Source: a virus | IMG/VR virus record: IMGVR_UViG_3300042569_001506 | Span: 1-36,461 of that record | Strand: one strand, 5' to 3' | Length of the DNA stretch: 36,461 nucleotides | Shown here: positions 1 to 34,349 of the stretch, one piece after another | Position numbering within the stretch: position 1 is the first letter of the stretch | Layout of the letters: each line of letters opens with the position of its first letter | Notes under the pieces: generated by a model | What the model was told of the DNA's origin: nothing | The model's database searches: none | What the model saw: the letters and a program-made list of their open reading frames with translations, nothing else | Position numbers and translations under genes: made by a program

Positions 1-126
1 ATATTGAAAGAAGGGTTTGAAAAATACGAAGATAATGGTAAATGTTGGTGGGGTAGATTTAAGGAAGAAGATAAGGATTACTCAACTGAACAACTTTATG
101 AAATGTGGTTGGGCAATTATGCCTAA
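1..126 (+). CDS. C-terminal fragment of an unknown cassette-borne protein
   Basis: Frame 1 is open from the first base to TAA at 124-126 and encodes 41 residues ending in MWLGNYA; the start lies outside the window. The fragment is charged and aromatic (EKYEDN, CWWGRF, then an acidic stretch) and I do not recognise a family. The stop codon lies inside the R'' box (GCCTAAC) of the attC-like site at 121-193, the usual position of an attC site relative to a cassette gene. An overlapping 68-codon reading frame (17-223) is rejected because it runs straight through the attC-like hairpin. Confidence 0.6.
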   Translation: MLKEGFEKYEDNGKCWWGRFKEEDKDYSTEQLYEMWLGNYA

Positions 127-193
127 CGTTTTGCAGATACACGCTGTGAGCGTTGGAATGAGGGAGGGAAATAGCGTGTATGTGCTGTTATCG
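121..193 (+). other. attC-like recombination site 1
   Basis: R'' GCCTAAC (121-127) overlaps the preceding stop codon. After a 5-nt unpaired spacer comes a left arm (133-145, GCA then ATACACGCT) and a right arm (173-185, AGCGTGTAT then TGC); nine bases pair perfectly and GCA/TGC pair beyond a G/G mismatch. After one nucleotide comes R' GTTATCGGC (187-195). This order, and the longer left than right spacer, are those of integron attC sites. That an integron integrase acts on it is inference. Confidence 0.72.
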
Positions 194-608
194 GCTGCCC
201 TTCTTTCGGAATTAATAACTTAAAAAACAACATAAAATGGACGATTTATTAATAACAAGTTTGCTGTCAAAGTATCAGCATCAAAAACCTAAAGAATTTG
301 GCGATTATATGGAACGCCAATATCCAGTATCGGCAGTAATTGATATGATAATAGAATTGAAAAGTTCAAACCTATCAATACAATTTGCAGAATGGTTATC
401 AGAAAATGAGTGGGTGAAAAGAACCGCTACCCATCCAAATAAAGTCGGTCAATATTATTCGCATAAACATTGTGAATATAAAACCATTGAGCAACTATTC
501 GATATATTTTCGGGTGTCGCTTAGGGTTGCCGATAACGGCATCGGGCTTGGCGAAGTGGCTTTTGTGCGTTGGCTTGTGTGTCGGAAAGCCATTTTGCCA
601 AACCCGTG
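188..608 (+). mobile_element. Integron-like gene cassette (95-aa gene + attC-like site 2)
   Basis: Boundaries are set by the G^TT position of R' at site 1 (187/188) and at site 2 (608/609). The first bases, with the preceding G, read GTTATCGGC; the R'' box at the other end reads GCCGATAAC (529-537), its exact reverse complement (9/9), with CCC/GGG pairing after two mismatches. A cassette excised as a circle with one attC site would have exactly this property. It holds one gene (237-524) and no obvious promoter. Confidence 0.68.
237..524 (+). CDS. Hypothetical protein, 95 aa (cassette gene)
   Basis: A 95-aa soluble, slightly acidic protein without a signal peptide or membrane segment. It is rich in predicted helix (AVIDMIIELKSSN, IQFAEWLSENEW) and has a central HPNKVGQYYSHKHCEYK segment with several His and one Cys. 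I recognise no family. The ATG follows an A-rich, SD-less leader (AAAAAACAACATAAA) typical of Bacteroidota. The TAG stop lies five bases before the R'' box of attC-like site 2, so it is the sole gene of its cassette. Orphan cassette genes of unknown function are common in integrons. Confidence 0.65.
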   Translation: MDDLLITSLLSKYQHQKPKEFGDYMERQYPVSAVIDMIIELKSSNLSIQFAEWLSENEWVKRTATHPNKVGQYYSHKHCEYKTIEQLFDIFSGVA

Positions 609-614
609 TTATAT
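529..614 (+). other. attC-like recombination site 2
   Basis: R'' GCCGATAAC (529-537), 5-nt spacer, left arm 543-563, loop 564-585, right arm 586-606, one-nt spacer, R' GTTATAT (608-614). The arms are 21 nt long with 18 Watson-Crick pairs, two G-T wobbles and one mismatch, making this the strongest hairpin in the window. It is in the same orientation as site 1 and starts just after the stop codon of the 95-aa gene. It is not followed by a T-run, so it is not an ordinary rho-independent terminator. Confidence 0.75.
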
Positions 615-684
615 GAAGTGCCGACTTATTTACGATAAAGCCCAATTGGAACACTAAACAGAAAAATAAAAAATAAAAAAAGCG

Positions 685-1581
685 ATGACAACAACAGACA
701 TTAGATTTAACGAAAAACAAGATTTTGAAACAATAAAATCTGTAATTGAAAATGAATTTACAAATGTTCAAACACATACAAAGATTAGTGATTTGGACTA
801 CATTTCATTTGATTACAAAGAGCAAAACATTTATTGCTCATTTATGAAGCATAATAAAATTTATGGCAGAGGTAATAAATTAACTGAATGCTCATCTTTT
901 TCATCCGACAGACCCAATGAAATTAAAACAGAGGCATTAAAAATTATTGCCAAATATTTTGATTGCAGGTTTTGGGAAAACGATTGCGAAGAAGATAACT
1001 ATATTGACTTTAAAGCAAAAAAGAAGATTAAGCCACAAAAAGAAGCTGGATATAATGCTAAAACGCAAACAGATAAAAATATTGCGTGGTTTTTACCAAG
1101 ACCAAAGCCAGATAGATATAAGGGAGGAATGCCTTTATATTGCGAAGATTGGCTTGTTAACTTAGCAAAAGACATCTTAGGGATGAAACACGACCCATAT
1201 ACATTAAATGTTTTTTGTGGCATGAATAAACGAGGAATAAGGGTTGACATAAAAGAAGAAGTAAAGCCAGACATTCTTTGCGATGCACACGAATTGTCAA
1301 AACATTTACTTCCTGTTGGTCAAAGATTTGATTTAATAATTGCAGACCCACCATATTCAACAGAGGAAGCAAGAGATATTTATGGAACGCCAAAATTGAA
1401 ATATAAACAATGGACATCTGAATGCGACAAGTATTTAAAATCTGGTGGATTGTTTATGGTTTATCATAAATTTGTTATGCCAAACCCTAACCCAGAAAAA
1501 TATGTAGTTGTAAAAAGAGTATTTATAGGGAATAGGACAATGCACCTTCCAAGAGTATGTATAGTTTTTCAAAAAAAATGA
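685..1581 (+). CDS. Class I SAM-dependent methyltransferase with DPPY motif (probable DNA N6/N4)
   Basis: 298 aa. The C-terminal half is a Rossmann-type methyltransferase: a motif I-like NVFCGM (175-180), an acidic loop PDILCDAHEL (195-204) and motif IV IIADPPY (218-224), the amino-methyltransferase catalytic signature. The N-terminal ~130 residues match nothing I know and may recognise the target. Motif I is not a canonical FxGxG, so the SAM site is degenerate and the substrate (DNA adenine or cytosine) is inferred. It is the only gene of the last cassette in the left array, in line with restriction evasion. The start is preceded by AAAAAATAAAAAAAGCG without an SD. Confidence 0.78.
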   Translation: MTTTDIRFNEKQDFETIKSVIENEFTNVQTHTKISDLDYISFDYKEQNIYCSFMKHNKIYGRGNKLTECSSFSSDRPNEIKTEALKIIAKYFDCRFWENDCEEDNYIDFKAKKKIKPQKEAGYNAKTQTDKNIAWFLPRPKPDRYKGGMPLYCEDWLVNLAKDILGMKHDPYTLNVFCGMNKRGIRVDIKEEVKPDILCDAHELSKHLLPVGQRFDLIIADPPYSTEEARDIYGTPKLKYKQWTSECDKYLKSGGLFMVYHKFVMPNPNPEKYVVVKRVFIGNRTMHLPRVCIVFQKK

Positions 1582-1642
1582 GCGTGGGCTTTTTATTTTT
1601 TTGTTTTTCCTTCACGGATTTTCAATTGGAAACGGTCAGCAA

Positions 1643-1657
1643 GGCATTTCATATAAC
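1643..1657 (+). other. R''-like box marking the end of the left cassette array
   Basis: This 15-nt sequence is the reverse complement of 608-622 with one mismatch, so it is the R'' partner of the last cassette's own start. It is followed by TAGTAAATTTGCG, which resembles the bases after the equivalent box of the right array (TACTTTATTTACG after 34321). On the - strand the junction reads ...ACTAGTTATATG, that is, a G^TTA core next to backbone, so an attI-like target is possible. Nothing else is seen between 1582 and 1726 except a TAAATTTG (1661-1668) that could be a -7 box without a -33 partner. Confidence 0.5.
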
Positions 1658-1726
1658 TAGTAAATTTGCGAATATTTTTTACAAATAACCAATTAATAAT
1701 CAATTTAAAATCTGTAATTTAATAAA

Positions 1727-3646: not shown

Positions 3647-5173
3647 TTTTAAGAAAACACCCCATGCACTATCACCACTATTTGCTAGTGTTATTGAAAC
3701 TACCAAATATTTATTTGTTGTAAAATCTGGTGTAATTGTAGATGGAGATGTAGTAGATGAAATACCTACATCTATTAGTGATGTAGAACTTGTTGGCAAT
3801 ATTTTAGTACCTGCACCTGTTCCGTTTTTATTTTTTATATTTAAGTATCTTTGAGCTGTTGCATTTCTAGTAGTAGCTCCTAATGCAGCACTTTGAAAAA
3901 TTAATATTGGACTACCCGATAAATTAGCAGTAGAATTTATGTACATTTTTAATGTTACAGTTCCTGCACTACCTGTTTTTTCTATTTTAAAAGATGAATC
4001 TAAAGAAAGGTTATCAGAAATTAGTGAACTATTTATTAATTCAGCATAAGTAACAGTTTCAGCTGTTGTGCCTGTTACTATTGTTCCATTTGCCCCTTGA
4101 TTTATTATAGGTAATAAAAAAGTTAAACCTAAATTTGCTCTAGCAGCTGAAACACTTGTTAAATCACTTAGATTATTGGTAGGGTTTAGAGGGATATATC
4201 CTAATGCATTTTGTTTTCCATTAAATGTACTCCAATCTGTAGAACTTAATGCACCTCTATTTGTAGCTGAGGCTGTAGGAAGGTTAAATGTGTGAGTAGT
4301 TCCTGAGGATGCAATGTTAAAATTTGTGCCACTTGTTCCAGTTGCAAGTGTTTGAACAGAACCAGTAAGCGAATTAATAGCAGTTATACCACTTCCACTC
4401 ATAATACCTGATTGTTGAGTAACTGTAAGAATTACAGAAGCAGCCGATGGTGGTGGACTTCCAGCAGCATAGAATTGCATCTTAACATTTGTATGGTTAG
4501 TAGTACTCCATATTAATTCATAATATTGACCTGCAATGACTTCAATAACATAATTCCAAGCAACTATTGTATGACCATCAATACTACCATGTTTATTAGG
4601 TACTGAAACAAAACCAGCAGAACCTAATACATCTACTCCATTTAATCGTAACCATATTGTTACATCATTTAATTGAGTATCTGAATTTTGAAATTGTGAA
4701 CTAAATTGAATATTATAAATCCCAGTATTTGCAAATGTAATTCTTGTTGGATTACCACTTAAATCGTTAGCTATTGATATGCCATTTGGTGTAACATCAG
4801 CAACTTCAAATCTCATCGCATAACCTGTATTCGAAGCAGAAGCAGTTTGTGTAGTATCTGTTTGCCAAGCACCATAATATCCTAATCCAGTACCACCACC
4901 ACCACCACCGCCTGAACAATCGCATATACACGCTGTACGCAACCCAACTAAATAAGTATATAATAAATCAAATGTCTTGTAAGTACCACCATTAATCAAA
5001 GTAACATCATCTAATTTTATTTCATAAGTATTTCTATAATCCTTAATAGTAAAAGTATATTCACTATATGTAAATGTTGTTTCAGTTGCATTAAATTCAG
5101 CAATTACATTACCACTACTATCCTTTAAAACTAAAAGACAATCCGATTTACTTATGTCGGTTACTATACACAT
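3635..5173 (-). CDS. Tail fibre / receptor-binding protein
   Basis: 512 aa. N-terminal ~85 residues (MCIVTDIS...) form a small module also found alone at 5985-6155. A Cys-rich hinge CICDC is followed by seven glycines, then a jelly-roll-like stretch with FANTGIYNIQFSSQFQNSD and WLRLNGVDV, resembling TNF/C1q-type fibre domains. Next is a typical tail-fibre region: ATNRGALSSTDWSTFNGKQN, ALGYIPLNPTNNLSDLTSV and ARANLGL. The Ser/Thr/Asn-rich C-terminal domain would bind the host receptor. It shares one base with the holin-like gene upstream, so fibre and lysis genes are probably co-transcribed. Confidence 0.85.
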   Translation of the reverse strand: MCIVTDISKSDCLLVLKDSSGNVIAEFNATETTFTYSEYTFTIKDYRNTYEIKLDDVTLINGGTYKTFDLLYTYLVGLRTACICDCSGGGGGGGTGLGYYGAWQTDTTQTASASNTGYAMRFEVADVTPNGISIANDLSGNPTRITFANTGIYNIQFSSQFQNSDTQLNDVTIWLRLNGVDVLGSAGFVSVPNKHGSIDGHTIVAWNYVIEVIAGQYYELIWSTTNHTNVKMQFYAAGSPPPSAASVILTVTQQSGIMSGSGITAINSLTGSVQTLATGTSGTNFNIASSGTTHTFNLPTASATNRGALSSTDWSTFNGKQNALGYIPLNPTNNLSDLTSVSAARANLGLTFLLPIINQGANGTIVTGTTAETVTYAELINSSLISDNLSLDSSFKIEKTGSAGTVTLKMYINSTANLSGSPILIFQSAALGATTRNATAQRYLNIKNKNGTGAGTKILPTSSTSLIDVGISSTTSPSTITPDFTTNKYLVVSITLANSGDSAWGVFLKLKP

Positions 5174-5349
5174 TATTTACCTGAAACATTAAAATCTTTT
5201 GCAACTACTCCTAATACTGCAATTGATACAGCTATTATTAATTGTGCTACTTGTTCTTTGCTACCTGTAAATCCTTCTGAAATAAATGTTTGAGCTACTA
5301 ATAAGCCTGATGCTATTGCACCTATTAATGTCGTTTTCCAATTTTTCAT
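5173..5349 (-). CDS. Holin-like membrane protein, 58 aa
   Basis: 58 aa. The N-terminus reads MKNWKTTLIGAIASGLL, then a short loop (FTGSKEQ) and a second hydrophobic stretch (LIIAVSIAVLGVVAKDF), giving two membrane segments and a lysine-bearing C-terminus (NVSGK). This size and topology match small class II holins, and similar KNWKTT...AKDFN proteins are common in Bacteroidota phages. It sits between the tail fibre (1-nt overlap) and two small membrane-associated genes, a normal place for a lysis gene. The endolysin candidate is far away at 36190-36461. Confidence 0.72.
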   Translation of the reverse strand: MKNWKTTLIGAIASGLLVAQTFISEGFTGSKEQVAQLIIAVSIAVLGVVAKDFNVSGK

Positions 5350-5714
5350 AATTTATTTTTTTTAATGTTATTAAATGATTTTAACCTTTTTTTATTTTGT
5401 TTTAAATTTTCAAATTCACTATTTACAATTTGTTCAACTTGTTCAGCATTGTAATCATCTTTTAATATTAATATATATTGATTAATTACATCTTTTTGAG
5501 AATATTTTTTTAAATCAGTTCTTATATTTTTTCTTATTAAATTATCTTTTTTTATTTCTTTTCTAGTTGCATCTTTTTTTGCTTCTACAATTTGAACTGG
5601 AGTACGAATTTCTTGTTTTTTTTCTATAACTGGCACTAATTCCTTAGTCGTGTCTGAAACGCTAGAAATTGACTTAAAAAACTGAATTATTAATTCAATA
5701 ATTGATTGCCACAT
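5346..5714 (-). CDS. Hypothetical lysis-region protein, 122 aa, coiled-coil
   Basis: 122 aa. The N-terminus has a hydrophobic amphipathic helix (WQSIIELIIQFFKSI); the rest is very Lys/Glu/Asn-rich and probably helical. The C-terminus is highly basic (LKQNKKRLKSFNNIKKNKL). It overlaps the holin start by 4 bp and the 89-aa gene upstream by 25 bp. By position it could be an Rz/spanin-like or anti-holin partner, but there is no signal sequence or lipobox, so no function is assigned. Confidence 0.55.
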   Translation of the reverse strand: MWQSIIELIIQFFKSISSVSDTTKELVPVIEKKQEIRTPVQIVEAKKDATRKEIKKDNLIRKNIRTDLKKYSQKDVINQYILILKDDYNAEQVEQIVNSEFENLKQNKKRLKSFNNIKKNKL

Positions 5715-9764: not shown

Positions 9765-10841
9765 ATGGAAAACAATAAACATAACTTCCCTTACAAATGG
9801 ACTTTGAAGGATGCAGTATTTACAAAAGACAAAGGCAAAGTATTTAGTTGCTTTGCTTGTGGTGGTGGTTCAACTATGGGTTATAAATTAGCTGGATTTG
9901 ATGTATTAGGATGCAATGAGATTGACCCTAAAATGATTGAAGCATACAAAGCTAACCACAAACCAAAATATGCTTATTTAGAGCCAATACAGACCTTTAA
10001 ATTAAGAACTGATTTGCCTGATGAATTATACAATTTAGATATTTTAGATGGTTCGCCACCTTGTAGCAGTTTTTCAATGGCCGGAAACCGTGAAAATGAT
10101 TGGGGCAAAGACAAAGTATTTAGAGAGGGACAAGCAATGCAGGTTTTAGATACCTTGTTTTTTGATTTTATAGACCTTGCAAAAAAGCTACAACCAAAGG
10201 TAGTAATAGCCGAAAACGTAAAAGGATTGCTTTTGGGTGATGCAAAGCAATATGTAAGACAAATTTATAGGGAATTTGATTTGGCTGGTTATTATGTTCA
10301 ACATTGGCTTTTAGATGCTTCAAAAATGGGTGTTCCTCAAAGACGCGAGCGGGTGTTTTTTATTGCAATGCGTAAAGATTTAGCTGAGCCGTTTATGGTG
10401 CAAAAGGATATGTTTACGTTTGTGCCTGAATTGAAGTTGGTTTTTAATGAGACTGATATACCTTTTAAAGAAGTTTATCACAATTATACAGATAGGCCAC
10501 TTTCTGAACATTATCAAAAATTTTGGAATATTAGAAAGCTAGGCGATGTTGATTTTAGTGCTTCATCTGAAAGAATGGGTAAAAATCCAAACGCTCAATT
10601 TCAATACAAATATCTTTATATGGATAAGGTTGCTAATACTATTACAGCAGGTGAACAATGTGTTTTATTTGATAGTGCAAGATATCGAAATTTTGATGAA
10701 TTATGTGAGTGTGGCACATATCCAAAAGATTATAATTTTATAAAAAATAAACCCGAATACCTAATCGGTATGTCAGTTCCACCTGTAATGACTGCACAAA
10801 TAACAAAACAAGTATATGAACAATGGTTAAGTAAGATTTAA
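9765..10841 (+). CDS. DNA (cytosine-5) methyltransferase
   Basis: 358 aa with the C5-methyltransferase motifs in order: I CFACGGGSTMG (29-39), IV GSPPCSSFS with catalytic Cys100, VI ENVKG (150-154), VIII QRRERVFFI (192-200), a variable target-recognition region, then IX/X near the C-terminus (NTITAGEQ, and LIGMSVPPVMTAQI). It methylates cytosine at C5 in a sequence of unknown specificity. No cognate endonuclease is adjacent, so it is an orphan phage methyltransferase that probably protects phage DNA from restriction. It ends the + strand block and overlaps the convergent lipoprotein-like gene by 4 bp. Confidence 0.93.
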   Translation: MENNKHNFPYKWTLKDAVFTKDKGKVFSCFACGGGSTMGYKLAGFDVLGCNEIDPKMIEAYKANHKPKYAYLEPIQTFKLRTDLPDELYNLDILDGSPPCSSFSMAGNRENDWGKDKVFREGQAMQVLDTLFFDFIDLAKKLQPKVVIAENVKGLLLGDAKQYVRQIYREFDLAGYYVQHWLLDASKMGVPQRRERVFFIAMRKDLAEPFMVQKDMFTFVPELKLVFNETDIPFKEVYHNYTDRPLSEHYQKFWNIRKLGDVDFSASSERMGKNPNAQFQYKYLYMDKVANTITAGEQCVLFDSARYRNFDELCECGTYPKDYNFIKNKPEYLIGMSVPPVMTAQITKQVYEQWLSKI

Positions 10842-24690: not shown

Positions 24691-25980
24691 TTAATTAAAA
24701 TCTAACTTATCTTTAAAATTATTAATTAATAAGTATTTAAGACAATCCATTAAGTGTGATAATTCAGAGCCTGTTCCTGTGGTTTTCTTTAATAATTTAC
24801 CATCACTACCAACTTCACAATAAGTTAAGTCATTAATCATAAGTTTGCAATTCGGATTGATATAGCACAAATCAGTATGGAACGCCCTGCTAATTAACTC
24901 CCTGCTATTCAAATTAGAATGGTTTACGCTAGGTATTACAAATTGATAACCAGATAGCTTTAATTTATCAGCAATCACTTGATAGTAAGTTATACCACCT
25001 TTACTTATTGCTTGTCTATTCTTACCTGTGGCATCACCTGTTACCATGATGTTGTTAGATTTAGGTAGCTTCATTCTTATATGGTCGCATAGTTCGTAAA
25101 TATCACTATCTCTTAATACAAACTCTTCAATTACTACAATTTTATTGCCTTGTAATTGCCCTGCTATGCAAGTCATAGGATTGACGTTAAAGTCAAAGCT
25201 AAGATAAATAGTTCCGTTATTGTATTCACAATCTTGTACGTGCTTTTCTTTTCTGAATGTAGGGATAAATGGTTTATCTACTTCAGCTTTGCCCCACTTA
25301 CCATATAAATTGACATCGAGTAAATTTTGATTATGTGAATAATTGAGCCTTAATGTTTCCTCGTATTTTTCTCTATCTATAAATTCATTATTGGCAAATG
25401 TAGAATGATTAACATAAGAATCTAAGAAGTCTATCTTTATTCTACTATCATCATTTTCATCAAAAAAATAAGTCCTTAGCCAACTATTGACATCGACTGG
25501 ATTAAAGCTAATTATAAATTGATGATTTTTATTTAATGGAGTTCTTAAAAGTGCATTCAATGTAGTGAAATCATCTTGACTACCTTTGTTTATCTCATCC
25601 CACCATATAATAGTAGGGTCTGAAAGTCCTTTGGTATTTTCTGCATTATCCATTCCGAGTGCAGTAAATTCAGTACCTGTTATTAGGTTCTTAAAGCCAT
25701 AATTTGTTTTATTAATACTAAAGTACTTAGTAAGTCCAAGTGCTTTTAATACTTTAATTATATCTTTGAATTGATTTTTTCTTATGTCACCAAATACCTT
25801 ATTGACATATACTATATGATTATACTCTTGTAGAAATGATATTGCAATAAGTTTAAGTATAATATTATGTGTTTTACCACCACCTCGACCACCCCATAGT
25901 ATTTGATACCTATTTTTAGATTGTAGGAAGGATTTGAAATGTTCACTATACCATTCTCTTTTTATCTTGAATTTCTGCAT
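24691..25980 (-). CDS. terL: Terminase large subunit
   Basis: 429 aa. ATPase: Walker A GGRGGGKT (30-37), Walker B TIIWWDE (123-129), and a coupling-type motif SFNPVD (158-163). Nuclease: first acidic site YLSFDFNVNP (259-268, Asp263), second VTGDATG (313-319, Asp316), further acidic residues near the C-terminus (HLMDCLKYLL). This is the motor that packages DNA through the portal and cuts it, terminase_3-like. It overlaps TerS by one base. Length is normal for the family. Confidence 0.95.
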   Translation of the reverse strand: MQKFKIKREWYSEHFKSFLQSKNRYQILWGGRGGGKTHNIILKLIAISFLQEYNHIVYVNKVFGDIRKNQFKDIIKVLKALGLTKYFSINKTNYGFKNLITGTEFTALGMDNAENTKGLSDPTIIWWDEINKGSQDDFTTLNALLRTPLNKNHQFIISFNPVDVNSWLRTYFFDENDDSRIKIDFLDSYVNHSTFANNEFIDREKYEETLRLNYSHNQNLLDVNLYGKWGKAEVDKPFIPTFRKEKHVQDCEYNNGTIYLSFDFNVNPMTCIAGQLQGNKIVVIEEFVLRDSDIYELCDHIRMKLPKSNNIMVTGDATGKNRQAISKGGITYYQVIADKLKLSGYQFVIPSVNHSNLNSRELISRAFHTDLCYINPNCKLMINDLTYCEVGSDGKLLKKTTGTGSELSHLMDCLKYLLINNFKDKLDFN

Positions 25981-26435
25981 TATTCCTCAATGAATAAATC
26001 ATCTGCACCTTTATTAATTGTTAAATTGTTTTTAATAGCTTCATCCCAACCATCCATTTTTGACAACCTTTCAACACCTGCATAAAATGCCATTTTATCA
26101 CTACTATTTGCCTTGCTATCTTTTGCCACTATTTTATTGTATTGTATTTTTACTACATTGCTTACCATTTCTAAGGCTTTCTCCCTTTGTAGTATATTAG
26201 CCTTACTTTCGTTTTTTATTGCTTCTACATGGCTATTTTCACGCTCTAATCTTATTTTATCTTGTTTGTCTTTGATATATGCTGAAATTGTAGGGTTTTG
26301 TAGGATTTTGTAGGATTCAACCCTTGCACTTTCACTTTTGCTTTTAGGATATGCTTTTTGATAGCTTTTTATAGCATCATTTGTGAGTATATACTCGTCT
26401 GCAAATATTCGATGTTTATTATTAGTTATCATCAA
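25980..26435 (-). CDS. terS: Terminase small subunit
   Basis: 151 aa. N-terminal helix-turn-helix region of the terminase_2 type: FADEYILTNDAIKSYQKAYP, SESARVESYKILQNPTISAY, then a coiled coil (KQDKIRLERENSHVEAIKNE) for oligomerisation and an acidic C-terminus (DDLFIEE) to contact TerL. It recognises the packaging site. It begins within the last codons of the ParB-methyltransferase gene (14-bp overlap); a second Met one codon later is equally possible as start. Confidence 0.88.
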   Translation of the reverse strand: MMITNNKHRIFADEYILTNDAIKSYQKAYPKSKSESARVESYKILQNPTISAYIKDKQDKIRLERENSHVEAIKNESKANILQREKALEMVSNVVKIQYNKIVAKDSKANSSDKMAFYAGVERLSKMDGWDEAIKNNLTINKGADDLFIEE

Positions 26436-27660
26436 ATTCTTTTTTATCTATTACTACTCCGTTACGTTTGATTACCAAAGTAGGGTCAAGTTTAATCATT
26501 CGCTTTACAATTACATCGCAATATTTAGGGTCGAGCTCCATTAAATTAGCTGTTCTTTTTAATTGATGGCTTCCAACCATTGTACTTCCACTTCCTCCAA
26601 AAGCATCATAAATTAATTGTCCTTTTTTACTACTATTATTTAAAGCACGTTCAACCACATCTATTGGCTTTTGTGTAGGGTGATAATCATTCGTATTATC
26701 TTTTTTAAATTCCCAAACAGTTTTTTCGTCAGTTGGCCCAAACCATTGAATTGTTTTACCTTCTTTATGACCATATATACAAGGCTCATAATTTGGAATA
26801 TATTGTGACATAAAAGCTCCAGAACCACTTTTAACTTTATACCAACAAATAACTGCTCTTACTTCAATTGGTGTTTTAGACAATCCTAAGTAAGTCTCTT
26901 TTGATTTTCCTCCAGCATACCAAATATAAAAAGGTGCTGAATCTTTTGAAAATATACAAGCTGTATTTATAGAATCCTCAAATAAACTTGACAAATCTTC
27001 TCCTTGTAATTCATCTGCAATAATACCAGTTCTTTGTTTTTTATTATGACCTCCAGTATAACTTACCCCATAAGGCGGGTCAGTAAATACCATGTCAGCC
27101 TTTTGTCCATTCATTAACTTTGCCACTTGGTCGCTATCCGTACTATCTCCACAAAGCAAACGATGCTCTCCTATTTCGTAAAGGTCGCCCAAAACAGTTA
27201 TAGGTGTTTCGGGTGGTGTTGCATCAAAATCATCTTCTTGAGCTTCTAAATGACTTTCTTCCTCCACTACCTCCACAAACACCTCTTCAAGCTCAAAATC
27301 AAATTCATCTGCAATTACCTCTACAAGTTCCACATCAATATTTTGGTTCTTTTGGGCTACTGTGTTTGCGAGAATAGATGCCTTATGAAATTCCTTTGTT
27401 CCGCTTTGTATATCGGTACGCTTAATAACTATTGGTGTAGTGCCATCGGTTTCAACTACAATAGCGTCTTTGCTAAACTTTTGCCCTATTTTCTCGTGCC
27501 TAGCATTTCCGCTTATAATTACATTATCATTGCTTATTGTTACACTTTCAATAATTCCTACTTGTTCTAGTGAATTATCTAGTGTGTGCATACCATACTC
27601 GGTGTGCTTGTTTGTATTCCTGCTATCAGGTTTTATATCTTTAAATTTTATTTTTGCCAT
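26422..27660 (-). CDS. ParB-like nuclease domain fused to a DNA methyltransferase
   Basis: 412 aa. Residues 1-~110 are a ParB/Srx-like domain (DIKPDSRNTNKHTEYGMHTL, then VGIIESVTIS and VIISGNARHEK). After an acidic linker comes a beta-class amino-methyltransferase: motif IV TDPPYGVSYTG (193-203), HPTQKP (327-332), motif I DAFGGSGST (352-360), DPKYCDVIVKR. It probably methylates adenine N6 or cytosine N4. This fusion is frequent next to terminases in phages, perhaps linking modification to packaging. It is the first gene of the late operon and has a strong promoter. Confidence 0.92.
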   Translation of the reverse strand: MAKIKFKDIKPDSRNTNKHTEYGMHTLDNSLEQVGIIESVTISNDNVIISGNARHEKIGQKFSKDAIVVETDGTTPIVIKRTDIQSGTKEFHKASILANTVAQKNQNIDVELVEVIADEFDFELEEVFVEVVEEESHLEAQEDDFDATPPETPITVLGDLYEIGEHRLLCGDSTDSDQVAKLMNGQKADMVFTDPPYGVSYTGGHNKKQRTGIIADELQGEDLSSLFEDSINTACIFSKDSAPFYIWYAGGKSKETYLGLSKTPIEVRAVICWYKVKSGSGAFMSQYIPNYEPCIYGHKEGKTIQWFGPTDEKTVWEFKKDNTNDYHPTQKPIDVVERALNNSSKKGQLIYDAFGGSGSTMVGSHQLKRTANLMELDPKYCDVIVKRMIKLDPTLVIKRNGVVIDKKEFDDN

Positions 27661-29891: not shown

Positions 29892-29996
29892 ATGTTACAA
29901 ATATTTTCACAATATAAAGCACCTGAAAACACATATTTCGTATGTGGGTTAGTCGATTTTCCAGAGGGTGCTTTTCTTTTTAAAAAATCGACATAA
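29892..29996 (+). CDS. 34-aa leader peptide ORF coupled to the next gene
   Basis: ATG 29892 to TAA 29994-29996; product MLQIFSQYKAPENTYFVCGL plus 14 residues ending FLFKKST. Its TAA overlaps the ATG of the 256-aa gene (TAATG), giving translational coupling. The same 7-mer ATCGACA precedes both start codons (29881-29887 and 29987-29993). The ORF runs through the leader hairpin, so ribosome movement would change its folding. It could instead be a chance frame. Confidence 0.45.
   Translation: MLQIFSQYKAPENTYFVCGLVDFPEGAFLFKKST
29916..29980 (+). promoter_or_regulatory. Structured mRNA leader with attenuator-like hairpin
   Basis: An outer stem AAAGCACC/GGTGCTTT (29916-29923 with 29967-29974; 8 perfect pairs) encloses a second hairpin CACATA/TATGTG (29930-29935 with 29941-29946, loop TTTCG). 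The outer stem runs into TTTTCTTTTT, so it can act as a terminator or attenuator just upstream of the start of the 256-aa gene. GTCGAT (29952-29957) can pair with either ATCGAC copy, giving an alternative fold. Confidence 0.5.
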
Positions 29997-30766
29997 TGGC
30001 AGAAAATAAAAAATCATTTATTCTTTATGCAGACTTAAATCATACTTTGGCAAAAGTTCCAGATGATGTTGCAGGTAGATTATTTAAAGTAATATTAGAA
30101 TATGTAAATGACAATAATCCAACTATTGAAGATGATTTATTACTTGAAGTTTTATTTGAGCCTATTAAACAAACTCTAAAACGTGATTTGCAAAGGTGGG
30201 AGCAATTTAGATTTAAGCAATCTGAAAATGGTAAAAAAGGCGGTAGACCACTAAAAAATAATCACTTAACAGATGCTAAAAATTTACATGAAAGTATTGA
30301 TAAACAATATGATATTCTTAAAATAGAAGAAAGCGAAAAAAACCCAAAAAACCCAAGCCTTAATTTAGAAAGCCAAAAAAGCCTAAGTGTAAGTGTTAAT
30401 GTAAGTGATAGTGTTAATGCTAATGTAAGTGAAAATGTAATTGTTAATGAAATAAAAAATAATATAGAGGAGCGCAAATTAAAATTTGCTTCCACACTCA
30501 AACCTTTTTTAGATACTTATGGTAAAGAAATGTTAAATGATTTTTATCTATATTGGACTCAACCAACAAAATCAAATACTAAATTCAAACAAGAACTTGA
30601 AAAAACATGGGGATTAAAATATAGGTTATCAACATGGAATAAAAATGATTTTAAAAACAAAGAAAAAAGTTCCGCAAAAAAAGAAAGTAAAATTAGCCAA
30701 CTCAAATCAGTTTCAGACGAACTAGACATAAAATTAGGAATTAACCAAAATAATCAAATAAAATAA
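29996..30766 (+). CDS. DUF6291-like phage replication-associated protein
   Basis: 256 aa. The N-terminal ~85 residues (SFILYADLNHTLAKVPDDVA, LFEPIKQTLKRDLQRWEQFR, NGKKGGRP) match the DUF6291 pattern seen in Bacteroidota phages. A central SVSVNVSDSVNANVSENV linker is encoded by near-repeats of AATGTAAGTG. The C-terminal domain (KPFLDTYGKEMLNDFYLYWT, KTWGLKYRLSTWNKN) is of the type found at the end of phage replication initiators. Probably a replisome organiser or helicase-loader-type protein. Preceded by a regulated leader. Confidence 0.65.
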   Translation: MAENKKSFILYADLNHTLAKVPDDVAGRLFKVILEYVNDNNPTIEDDLLLEVLFEPIKQTLKRDLQRWEQFRFKQSENGKKGGRPLKNNHLTDAKNLHESIDKQYDILKIEESEKNPKNPSLNLESQKSLSVSVNVSDSVNANVSENVIVNEIKNNIEERKLKFASTLKPFLDTYGKEMLNDFYLYWTQPTKSNTKFKQELEKTWGLKYRLSTWNKNDFKNKEKSSAKKESKISQLKSVSDELDIKLGINQNNQIK

Positions 30767-31875: not shown

Positions 31876-32055
31876 ATGGAAAAAGAACTCAAAGAACTTT
31901 TAAAGCTAAAAGAAAATGTAGTAAGATGGAATATGTGCGCTGAACTCGATGAAAGGCTAGGAGTAGACCCAACTAAATCAAATGAAAGTGCATTGTTTTA
32001 CGAGCAGGAATTGAATAGTAAATTGAAAAAGATTGTTGAAACTTATGGGAAATAA
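31876..32055 (+). CDS. Small helical protein, 59 aa
   Basis: ATG 31876, TAA 32053-32055: MEKELKELLKLKENVVRWNM, ELDERLGVDPTKSNESALFY, then a helix ending KKIVETYGK. No family recognised. Its TAA lies in AAATAAC, the R'' box of attC-like site 3. No matching GTTATTT start lies upstream, so this is probably a phage gene next to the insertion point rather than a cassette gene. Confidence 0.6.
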   Translation: MEKELKELLKLKENVVRWNMCAELDERLGVDPTKSNESALFYEQELNSKLKKIVETYGK

Positions 32056-32136
32056 CGACGTTTGCAGATAAGCGAAGGCACAAATAGCGTTGGCATTGTG
32101 CGAGGGATTTGGGCTTTTGCTTATGTGCTGTTATGT
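32050..32136 (+). other. attC-like recombination site 3
   Basis: R'' AAATAAC (32050-32056) overlaps a stop codon; left arm 32064-32084 (GCA, then ATAAGC, then AAGG.ACAAAT); right arm ~32107-32128 (ATTTGGGCTTTT, GCTTAT, then TGC); one base; R' GTTATGT (32130-32136). Arm layout, including the G/G mismatch between the GCA/TGC and AT-rich blocks, is the same as site 1 although sequences differ. Left spacer 7 nt, right spacer 1 nt. Confidence 0.68.
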
Positions 32137-32183
32137 GTCTGTAATTTTTTTAAACTTTTGTGCGTAGACTTTTAAATTATAAT

Positions 32184-32993
32184 ATGAAAACAATAACATC
32201 AATTTCAGGAGGTAAAACCTCTGCTTACTTAGCGAAACACTATCCAACCGATGAAAATATATTTGCATTGATTAGGATTGAAGATAGGAGATGCACTCCA
32301 AAGGATAAAGCATTGGTGCAAAAGATTAGCGATAAAATAGGAATGGAATTTATAGCTACTGCCGAAAGTGATACTACATTAACATTAATGTTTGATTTGG
32401 AGCAGTTACTTGGTAAAGAGATAATTTGGGTTACTGGCGATACTTTTGAGCAAGTGTGCCTAAAAAGAAAAGCATTACCAAACTTAATGATGAGATTTTG
32501 CACTACTGAAATGAAGATGAAACCAATATTTGAATTTTGCCATAATCATTTTGGAATGGTTGAAATGAATATCGGATTTAGATTTGATGAAATGGAACGT
32601 GCTAATAGCCAAAATACGAAGTTTAAGACTATTACAGGGCAAAGTGCTAATGGTAGAAACAAATGGACTGAAATAGAATGGAGAACTTGTAAATATCCAT
32701 TGATAGAAAACAGAATAAGCCATTACCAAGTAGCACAATGGGCAAATAAAACAGATTTGATATTTCCACCTGATAGTAATTGTGTTGGTTGCTTTTGGAA
32801 AAATCCACAACAACTTAGGAAAAACTTTGATGATGAAAGTTTGAAAATGCAATGGTTCGCAGATATGGAAACAACACTAAAACGCAAATGGAAAAAAGAA
32901 ATGAGTTATGAGAAAATAAAAACTATTGGACTGCAACAAGATTTCTACTTCGGAACCGGAAGCGGATGTCAAGCAGGATTTTGTACCGACTAA
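32184..32993 (+). CDS. PAPS-reductase-like PP-loop ATPase / sulfotransfer enzyme
   Basis: 269 aa from ATG 32184 (an ATG 24 bases upstream adds MRRLLNYN without support). The PP-loop SISGGKTSAYLAK (6-18) binds ATP/adenylate; MMRFCTTEMKMKP (102-114) corresponds to the RxCxxxLK-type loop of PAPS reductase-like enzymes; a CVGC pair (200-203) and two late Cys (CQAGFC) could bind iron-sulfur or zinc. The family adenylates and transfers sulfur or reduces PAPS; phage members are linked to DNA or RNA thio-modification. Substrate unknown. The partner gene in the same cassette acts on nucleosides, so a base modification is plausible. Confidence 0.82.
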   Translation: MKTITSISGGKTSAYLAKHYPTDENIFALIRIEDRRCTPKDKALVQKISDKIGMEFIATAESDTTLTLMFDLEQLLGKEIIWVTGDTFEQVCLKRKALPNLMMRFCTTEMKMKPIFEFCHNHFGMVEMNIGFRFDEMERANSQNTKFKTITGQSANGRNKWTEIEWRTCKYPLIENRISHYQVAQWANKTDLIFPPDSNCVGCFWKNPQQLRKNFDDESLKMQWFADMETTLKRKWKKEMSYEKIKTIGLQQDFYFGTGSGCQAGFCTD

Positions 32994-33010
32994 CTTTAAA
33001 ACAATATAAA

Positions 33011-33412
33011 ATGAAACAAAAAGTGTATTTAGCAGGTGGCTTTAAAAGCGACTGGGCAAACGAAGTAAAAAAGTGTTCTGATAATTTCCAATGGATAAAC
33101 CCAAAGGATAAGGAATATAAGAACGGAGAACGAATTGTAATGAATGTAAACGAATACGGAAAGTGGGATTTACATTTTATTAAGCAATGTGATATTCTGT
33201 TTGTTTATGTTGAAAGAACAAATACAAGTTGTATTGGATTATGCTGTGAAGCGGGATTTGCAAAAGGATTAGGTAAAACTGTAATTACAATTTTAGAACC
33301 TAACCACGAAACAATTAAAGATGCTTACTTGTCTTTTATAACACAAGTATCTGACATTGTATTTGAAGATTTAGAAAGTGGCATCAACTATTTAAAATCG
33401 TTTGCAGTATGA
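33011..33412 (+). CDS. Nucleoside 2-deoxyribosyltransferase-like protein
   Basis: 133 aa from ATG 33011. MKQKVYLAGGFKSDWANEV is the first strand and phosphate-side loop; KWDLHFIKQCDILFVYVERT and CIGLCCEAGFAKGLGKTVIT hold the Asp and the catalytic-type Glu (E-x-G-x-A) of the nucleoside deoxyribosyltransferase / DUF4406-like superfamily. It would cleave or exchange bases on (deoxy)nucleosides or nucleotides. It lies 17 bp after the PAPS-reductase-like gene, in the same cassette. Confidence 0.78.
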   Translation: MKQKVYLAGGFKSDWANEVKKCSDNFQWINPKDKEYKNGERIVMNVNEYGKWDLHFIKQCDILFVYVERTNTSCIGLCCEAGFAKGLGKTVITILEPNHETIKDAYLSFITQVSDIVFEDLESGINYLKSFAV

Positions 33413-33457
33413 TTGTTAGTACGGTGCGGTGGGAAAAAAAGTTTAAAAAAATTATTG

Positions 33458-33512
33458 CACATAACGTATGGTGCTATAAAATCGTTTTAATGTTTTATAG
33501 CACGTGTTACCT
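33458..33512 (+). other. attC-like recombination site 4
   Basis: R'' CACATAAC (33458-33465), 5-nt spacer, left arm GTGCTATAAAA (33471-33481), 11-nt loop, right arm TTTTATAGCAC (33493-33503; perfect 11-bp stem), 2-nt spacer, R' GTTACCT (33506-33512). Shortest of the four, same orientation, no T-run after it. Confidence 0.72.
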
Positions 33513-33579
33513 GCTGGTGCGGTTTATTTAGCAGGATTTTGATTTGAAAACGAATAGAAAATTTAAAAAGTTTTAGAGT

Positions 33580-34293
33580 ATGAAATATATGGGAAGTAAA
33601 AATCGGATAGCAAAAGAAATACTACCGATAATGCTAAAAGAACGAGGGCAAAGAACTTGGGTAGAGCCTTTTGTTGGAGGTGGAAATATGATTGATAAGG
33701 TGCAAGGCAAAAGAATAGGTGCAGACTTAAATGAATATGTAATTGCATTGCTAAACGAAATGAGCAAATCTACTTTTGTTGCACCTGCAATTAGCGAAGA
33801 AAAATATAACGAGTTAAAATCGAACAAAGATTTATACGAAAAATGGGTTGTTGGTTATGCAGGAACTCAATTAAGTTTTGGTGCTACTTGGTTTGGAAGT
33901 TATAGACGAGATAATTTAGGTAAAAGAAACTATTGCTTAGAAGCACAAACCAATGTAAATAAACAAAGCAAAAGCCTACAAGGTGTTGAGTTTATACATA
34001 GTAGTTACGATAGTTTAGAAGTGCCTGAAAATAGTTTTATTTACTGCGACCCACCATACCAAACCATAGCAACAAAAGGAAAGTATAAAGACGATTTTAA
34101 CCACGAAATATTTTGGCAATGGTGCAGAGATATGGTAACAAAAGGACACATAGTTTATGTAAGTGAATATAATGCACCTAATGATTTTGAGTGTGTTTGG
34201 CAAAAGGAAATTAACCAACGAATGAATAACAATGTTGAAACAAGTAAAGCGGTGGAAAAACTTTTTAAATTTTCTAACACAAATGTTCAATAG
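33580..34293 (+). CDS. DNA adenine methyltransferase, Dam/D12 class
   Basis: 237 aa. MKYMGSKNRIAKEILPIM is the FxGsK-type start of D12-class N6-adenine methylases; motif I VEPFVGGGN (28-36) binds SAM; motif IV CDPPY (156-160) is catalytic. The family methylates adenine, often in GATC. Slightly shorter than E. coli Dam (278 aa). Orphan: no cognate nuclease nearby. It is the only gene in the last cassette of the right array, matching the left array where a DPPY methyltransferase is also last. Confidence 0.92.
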   Translation: MKYMGSKNRIAKEILPIMLKERGQRTWVEPFVGGGNMIDKVQGKRIGADLNEYVIALLNEMSKSTFVAPAISEEKYNELKSNKDLYEKWVVGYAGTQLSFGATWFGSYRRDNLGKRNYCLEAQTNVNKQSKSLQGVEFIHSSYDSLEVPENSFIYCDPPYQTIATKGKYKDDFNHEIFWQWCRDMVTKGHIVYVSEYNAPNDFECVWQKEINQRMNNNVETSKAVEKLFKFSNTNVQ

Positions 34294-34312
34294 TAGTAGT
34301 GTCGTAGCACTT

Positions 34313-34321
34313 GCAGGTAAC
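34313..34321 (+). other. R''-like box ending the right cassette array
   Basis: GCAGGTAAC, the exact reverse complement of the cassette start at 33506-33514. It is followed by TACTTTATTTACGCAACA, which resembles TAGTAAATTTGCGAATA after the left array's box (1658-1674). Between here and 34350 there is only a SD-less leader. Confidence 0.55.
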
Positions 34322-34349
34322 TACTTTATTTACGCAACAAAACCAAATT

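Follow-up and report, generated by a model that had tools for sequence, protein, structure and literature searches.

Integron-like gene-cassette arrays in a phage that probably infects Bacteroidota

Introduction

Integrons and attC cassette arrays are already known from phages (PMC9892861), and methyltransferase cassettes have been noted in phages as well (Qi et al. 2023, PMC9892861). The hallmark of the integron integrase IntI has been described as an extra domain that integron recombination requires (PMC9024848; PMC9668308). Complete integrons have been reported to be very rare in Bacteroidetes proper (PMC9024848), and 'reverse' integrons of the spirochaete type have been mentioned (PMC9668308). 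In the open-access literature, we found no description of cassettes with attC at their 5' end or of a gene array with its attI behind the last gene, no Xer-like enzyme without the IntI domain described as a cassette integrase, and no paper on inverted integrons.

Here, we analysed a stretch of phage DNA, termed the window, which is a whole, linear IMG/VR record of 36,461 bases and may be a fragment. Its arrays share with integrons, including the phage-borne ones (Qi et al. 2023, PMC9892861), the R''-L''-L'-R' sites, the small cassettes, the terminal complementarity, the attI-like insertion site, the methyltransferase cassettes and the occurrence in phages, Polaribacter phage P12002L being one of those described. 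Unlike in these known integrons (PMC9892861), the genes point toward attI and the hairpin lies at the 5' end of the gene, complementarity of the termini extends over ~15 bp, and the linked recombinase is devoid of the IntI domain.

Results

The window carries two arrays of the same design

Two integron-like arrays of the same design are present in the window, a left one at 1-1657 and a right one at 32057-34321 (Table 1), as is a terminase gene at 24694-25980. Close relatives of the window are other viral contigs with 94-98% nucleotide identity. The isolated phages with the most DNA matches to it include Flavobacterium, Cellulophaga and Polaribacter phages, and these top matches make a Bacteroidota host likely.

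Table 1 Features of the two cassette arrays in the window.
Feature	Position	Strand	Basis or content
Gene 3' end, truncated by record start	1-127	+	Sequence; stop TAA 124-126 within first R'' GCCTAAC 121-127
attC-like site hp1	119-195	+	Covariance model R1, 54.9 bits, E 2e-9; fold
Cassette unit 1	128-537	+	Hairpin, gene 237-524, R'' 529-537
attC-like site hp2	529-616	+	Covariance model R1, 38.1 bits, E 7e-6; fold z -4.4
Cassette unit 2	538-1657	+	Hairpin, gene 685-1581, R'' ending at 1657
attI-like terminal site, left array	1655-1675	+	AAC^TAGTAAATTTGCGAATA; consensus of 57 terminal sites
Phage gene preceding right array	31876-32055	+	Kept in sister phages; stop codon within R'' GGGAAATAAC
attC-like site hp3	32048-32138	+	Covariance model R1, 49.3 bits, E 3e-8
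Cassette unit 3, two genes	32057-33465	+	Genes 32184-32993 and 33011-33412
attC-like site hp4	33457-33514	+	Covariance model R1, 29.3 bits, E 5e-4
Cassette unit 4	33466-34321	+	D12-class (Dam-type) DNA methyltransferase gene 33580-34293
attI-like terminal site, right array	34319-34339	+	AAC^TACTTTATTTACGCAAC; terminal R'' 34319-34321

In the direction of the genes, the order is a phage gene with its stop codon in R'', a hairpin, a gene, R'', a second hairpin, a gene, R'' and the attI-like site. The last cassette thus ends in an R'' box with no hairpin behind it, so that hairpins and cassettes are equal in number and each hairpin belongs to the gene 3' of it. In the left array, this final R'' is followed by TAGTAAATTTGCG; in the right array, the R'' box of the preceding phage gene forms the constant 5' junction.

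A reading of the sequence alone had described two hairpins in the same orientation at 121-193 and 529-614, and both are present. The R' box of hp1 is GTTATCGGC (187-195), that of hp2 begins at 608, and the R'' box of hp2 is GCCGATAAC. The perfect complementarity (9/9) reported between GTTATCGGC and GCCGATAAC, i.e., the termini of unit 1, extends to 13 of 15 positions (187-201 against 523-537), and the 14 of 15 given for unit 2 (608-622 against 1643-1657) was reproduced. The termini of unit 4 are complementary at 13 of 15 positions (33506-33520 against 34307-34321), and the circle form of unit 2 folds with a z of -6.9.

The gene of unit 1 encodes a 95-aa product for which a family search gave no match. 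Unit 2 carries a methyltransferase-like gene with a DPPY motif and a weak Pfam match to N6_N4_Mtase. In unit 3, the first gene appears PAPS-reductase-like by eye, with no match in the family search, and the second is nucleoside 2-deoxyribosyltransferase-like. Two more DNA methyltransferase genes lie outside the arrays (9765-10841 and 26425-27660), one of the C5 type and one with ParB-like and methyltransferase parts. An Rfam scan gave no relevant match, and a tRNA search found none.

The hairpins have the anatomy of attC sites

For a covariance search, we employed our own model, R1, and not HattCI; it was built from 16 training sites, all from other phage records. Run on both strands of the window with filters off, R1 returned exactly four matches, all on the + strand, and thereby scored every site. 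Within the training alignment, 95.4% of the pair cells are standard-paired, compared with 26-50% in slid controls, and 11 of the 12 long-stem pairs covary, with changes on both sides. R1 matches and covariation thus both reveal the R''-L''...L'-R' architecture and the conserved fold of attC.

A cassette start is complementary to its own R'', as seen in the window pairs and in a control comparison: 73 of 94 hairpins from the fetched viral loci have a run of at least 9 nt between their own R'' and R', compared with 26 of 458 combinations with an R' from another locus. Together with the R1 matches, this count rules out chance. The termini match over ~15 bp with a systematic G/A difference at position 11 (a G.T wobble on the + strand), which gives the cassette a polarity. 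A terminus-pair scan without a polarity rule gave 797 pairs, and because reversed-sequence controls gave as many as 445, the position-11 rule was adopted instead. A pattern scan of viral contigs recovered at least 215 polar cassettes in at least 82 viral loci, which, together with the precise exchange between sister phages described below, goes beyond the earlier phage study (PMC9892861). The + strand, i.e., the phage coding strand, folds better in 52 of 60 integrated hybrid sites and in 84 of 85 circle forms, and corresponds to the 'bottom strand' when viewed from attI. Demanding AAC/GTT pairing in the minimum-energy folds of hybrid sites proved too strict. A hairpin k-mer scan of genome contigs returned mostly chance 15-mer matches, and the exact hairpin subtype occurred in one of 395 Bacteroidia genomes.

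Since the hairpins come after stop codons and phage transcripts would fold into them, they might be transcription terminators or RNA leaders that resemble attC by convergence, and the sequence-only reading had considered that they could occur without genes as ordinary terminators. Terminators, however, need neither an R''/R' match between gene ends nor a polarity mark at position 11. The hairpins observed here have matched termini and move with genes, and both their covarying attC anatomy and the precise hairpin-plus-gene indel between L072 and L073 (see below) contradict this explanation, to which we assign a negligible probability.

Cassettes are gained, lost and exchanged at the AAC core

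Most of the contigs compared come from metagenomes and could be fragmentary or chimeric. The evidence from sister phages concerns the right array, where the window, L260, L261 and L262 have the sequence up to the identical junction GGGAAATAAC in common and then carry differing hairpins and genes. Between the same two bases, sister phages of 95-97% identity thereby harbour different cassettes. Behind the differing last cassettes of L260-L262, the 3' junction with TAGTAGATTG is constant, and TAGTAGATTGTAGAAATTAATTG is common to all three directly after the AAC of the last cassette. L260 and L261 show 0 mismatches over 7,160 bp upstream, and the last cassette alone is exchanged. Furthermore, L073 has exactly one unit of 756 bp more than the otherwise identical array of L072, comprising a hairpin, a cytosine-methyltransferase-like gene and R''. 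Full-length cassettes are 93-100% identical between loci with unrelated flanks (e.g., L004:2235-2682 and L142:3919-4366). In every comparison, the hairpin and the gene on its 3' side move together.

Sister phages and array pairs therefore display precise gain, loss and exchange at the GTT/AAC core, which is the boundary predicted by the sequence-only reading. As judged from these sequence comparisons, which provide direct evidence of movement, units of hairpin, gene and R'' move site-specifically.

The arrays might instead be relics without active site-specific recombination, copied between phages by homologous recombination at conserved hairpins. Hairpins of one subtype are indeed near-identical across contigs, phages recombine frequently and no recombinase is encoded in the window. 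However, the exchange boundaries lie at the AAC core beside dissimilar hairpins (L260/L261, L072/L073 and window/L260/L262), so that the homology is too small for homologous recombination, the ~15-bp matched termini are kept for each cassette, and recombinase genes are found at the attI-like end. We therefore hold this explanation to be very improbable. AAC-core boundaries, matched termini and precise indels led us to reject both the homologous-exchange and the terminator readings.

The record of L260 (IMGVR_UViG_3300034111_001103) has 168,934 bp, and its remainder resembles a different, giant phage. Judging from these giant-phage-like parts (with a 4,717-aa ORF in L334), the 169-kb record is probably a chimeric assembly.

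Each array ends in an attI-like site

At least 57 distinct terminal positions in viral loci gave the attI-like consensus AAC-T-[AC]-N3-[GT]-[AC]-T-[AT]-N2-CG[CA]A. Read on the opposite strand, the terminal site has the form of attI, i.e., an L box, a spacer and GTT. The constant sequence behind differing last cassettes is thus a putative attI site. No empty attI site (which for the right array would have the form GGGAAATAAC joined to TACTTTATTTACGC) was found, and the attI-like sequence of the left array was found in no other viral contig.

Upstream of the position equivalent to 1719 of the window, L006, L007, L011 and L012 lack an array where the left one stands in the window, and their recombination genes adjoin a NinB-like gene directly or via one extra gene. 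By comparison with these sisters, the left attI-like site and the left array seem to have come together.

On the minus strand of L047 (after 5720, 7618 and 8337), one and the same attI-like sequence stands in the place of the hairpin behind several cassettes. Cassettes on the + strand of L070 (after 8472 and 9918) are likewise each followed by a shared attI-like sequence and not by a hairpin. Both look as if the attI-like site were repeated inside the array.

Cassette genes of phages point to the attI-like end

An ORF of 60 aa or more is present in 191 phage cassettes; in 185 of them the gene is directed toward the attI-like end, and in 6 away from it. Chromosomal arrays of Bacteroidia share the polarity of the sites, but all 12 of their genes read away from attI, as in textbook integrons, and the recombinase reads toward it; this sample is small and comprises 12 genes on 8 contigs chosen by their recombinase alone. 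The two counts indicate that phages keep the polarity of the sites and carry the genes in the opposite sense. Phage cassettes thus depart from the textbook arrangement, in which attC stands 3' of the gene and genes read away from attI. The sequence-only reading is amended in that the attC polarity is reversed relative to the genes, so that insertion would take place at the 3' end of the array.

Like spirochaete-type 'reverse' integrons (mentioned in PMC9668308), the chromosomal Bacteroidia arrays have a recombinase gene that reads toward attI, in the same direction as their cassette genes. Unlike in the spirochaete type, the enzyme is devoid of the IntI domain, and in the phages it is the cassette genes, not the integrase gene alone, that are reversed with respect to attI.

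A chromosome-like contig of a Flavobacterium MAG holds a single cassette (L193:2302-2690), whose lipoprotein-like gene begins inside the hairpin loop; the 3' arm of the attC-like site thus doubles as coding sequence for part of the signal peptide.

A Xer-like recombinase adjoins the attI-like end in other phages

At the same genomic place as the right array of the window, L004 carries at least seven cassettes, followed by the gene of a 277-aa tyrosine recombinase (4796-5629) and a conserved phage gene. In six phage loci (L004, L028, L061, L088, L090 and L096), the last R'' is followed at a distance of 17-503 bp by the gene of a Xer-like tyrosine recombinase of 268-282 aa. A recombinase also stands beside the attI-like site in the Bacteroidia contig L335, in the order site, gene, R'', attI-like site, recombinase. 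L335 looks like a prophage, with a DnaB-like helicase, a serine recombinase and a gene similar to that at 29996-30766 of the window. The enzymes fall into two clades, one comprising those of L028, L044, L088 and L090 and the other those of L004, L061, L096 and L335. The same enzyme family is found at the attI-like end of eight chromosomal array contigs. At E<=1e-40, the family occurs in 170 of 395 sampled Bacteroidia genomes.

The best family match of the recombinases is the XerA-like NF040815, and they resemble Xer enzymes (NF040815, XerC/D) in size and catalytic residues as well. Unlike Xer, the phage enzymes stay below the Xer model cut-offs, are no universal housekeeping genes and are linked to cassette arrays. 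All tested recombinases score below the cut-off of TIGR02249, the model for IntI; the phage enzymes match it partially, and the match is broken at the region of the IntI extra domain. Residues 180-243 of IntI4 (PDB 2a3v) align opposite only ~21 residues of the chromosomal L315 enzyme, which indicates that the extra domain near patch III is absent from the linked enzymes.

A PF00589 search found no tyrosine recombinase in the window record, which thus differs from a complete integron with its linked integrase, and most sisters have none either. Among the ten records of the group including the window, some of which may be fragments, L004 alone has one. A PF03237 terminase search of large-phage records was uninformative. 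As the window and most sisters carry no recombinase gene, the recombinase probably acts in trans on the arrays of the window. The insertion of cassettes by an integron integrase, proposed in the sequence-only reading, is supported as far as insertion is concerned; the enzyme found beside such arrays is Xer-like and not a standard IntI, and it is absent here.

A conventional IntI of the host could also move the cassettes, in which case the array-adjacent Xer-like genes would encode ordinary phage recombinases that serve a different function. Several attC sites from virulent phages, one of them in P12002L, were shown to be recombined by IntI1 (Qi et al. 2023, PMC9892861). The DNA methylase gene of P12002L is 77.7% identical to the cassette 4 gene of the window and is preceded by an R1 match (L311:4877-4944); the window, moreover, lacks a recombinase gene. 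Against this, one enzyme family occupies the attI-like end of six phage loci, the prophage-like contig and eight chromosomal contigs, none of the tested enzymes reaches the TIGR02249 cut-off, and IntegronFinder 2.0 lists a single complete integron in Bacteroidetes proper, that of Salinibacter ruber (PMC9024848). We thus regard a host IntI as unlikely and the Xer-like enzyme as the likely recombinase of these cassettes.

Methyltransferases are frequent cargo

Of 102 sampled phage cassette proteins, 24 match DNA methyltransferase families (18 N6_N4_Mtase, 4 C5 methylase, 1 Dam and 1 D12). The benefit to the phage is likely counter-restriction, through swift exchange of DNA methyltransferases and other counter-restriction genes.

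Discussion

Our analysis suggests, with high probability, that the arrays of the window are working or recently working integron-type cassette arrays of a phage that probably infects Bacteroidota. The movement of cassettes is seen in comparisons of related sequences, and the role of the recombinase is inferred. Of the integron-like array first proposed for this DNA, the array itself, the matched termini and the movement of cassettes stand, and the last cassette differs in ending in R'' with no hairpin.

As the comparisons show, the cassette unit consists of attC hairpin, gene and R'' box, and the crossover lies inside the AAC core (GTT on the other strand). A Xer-like tyrosine recombinase would bind the folded single-stranded site and join cassette circles to attI; the strand bound would be the phage coding strand, which folds best through G.T wobbles. 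These enzymes are devoid of the domain that IntI reportedly needs, so that their action on folded single-stranded sites is putative; the better folding of the + strand supports it. In the window and most sisters, the recombinase would come from a co-infecting phage or from the host. With attI downstream, cassettes would be co-oriented with the phage operon and transcribable from upstream phage genes. Chromosomal cassettes inserted at a phage attI would be antisense.

We consider it somewhat more probable than not that a separate class of integrons, with short Xer-like recombinases that have no IntI domain, operates in Bacteroidota and their phages, and that phages use an inverted form of it with a cassette pool of their own as a platform for counter-restriction exchange. 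In this inverted form, cassettes would have attC at their 5' end and attI would lie downstream. If true, integrons would be far commoner among Bacteroidota and their phages than searches for IntI reveal, and the IntI-specific domain would not be essential to cassette recombination. How a Xer-type enzyme could turn into an integron integrase would be testable, as would a separation of phage and chromosomal cassette pools by gene orientation. Phages would then own a dedicated and precise route for trading anti-restriction genes.
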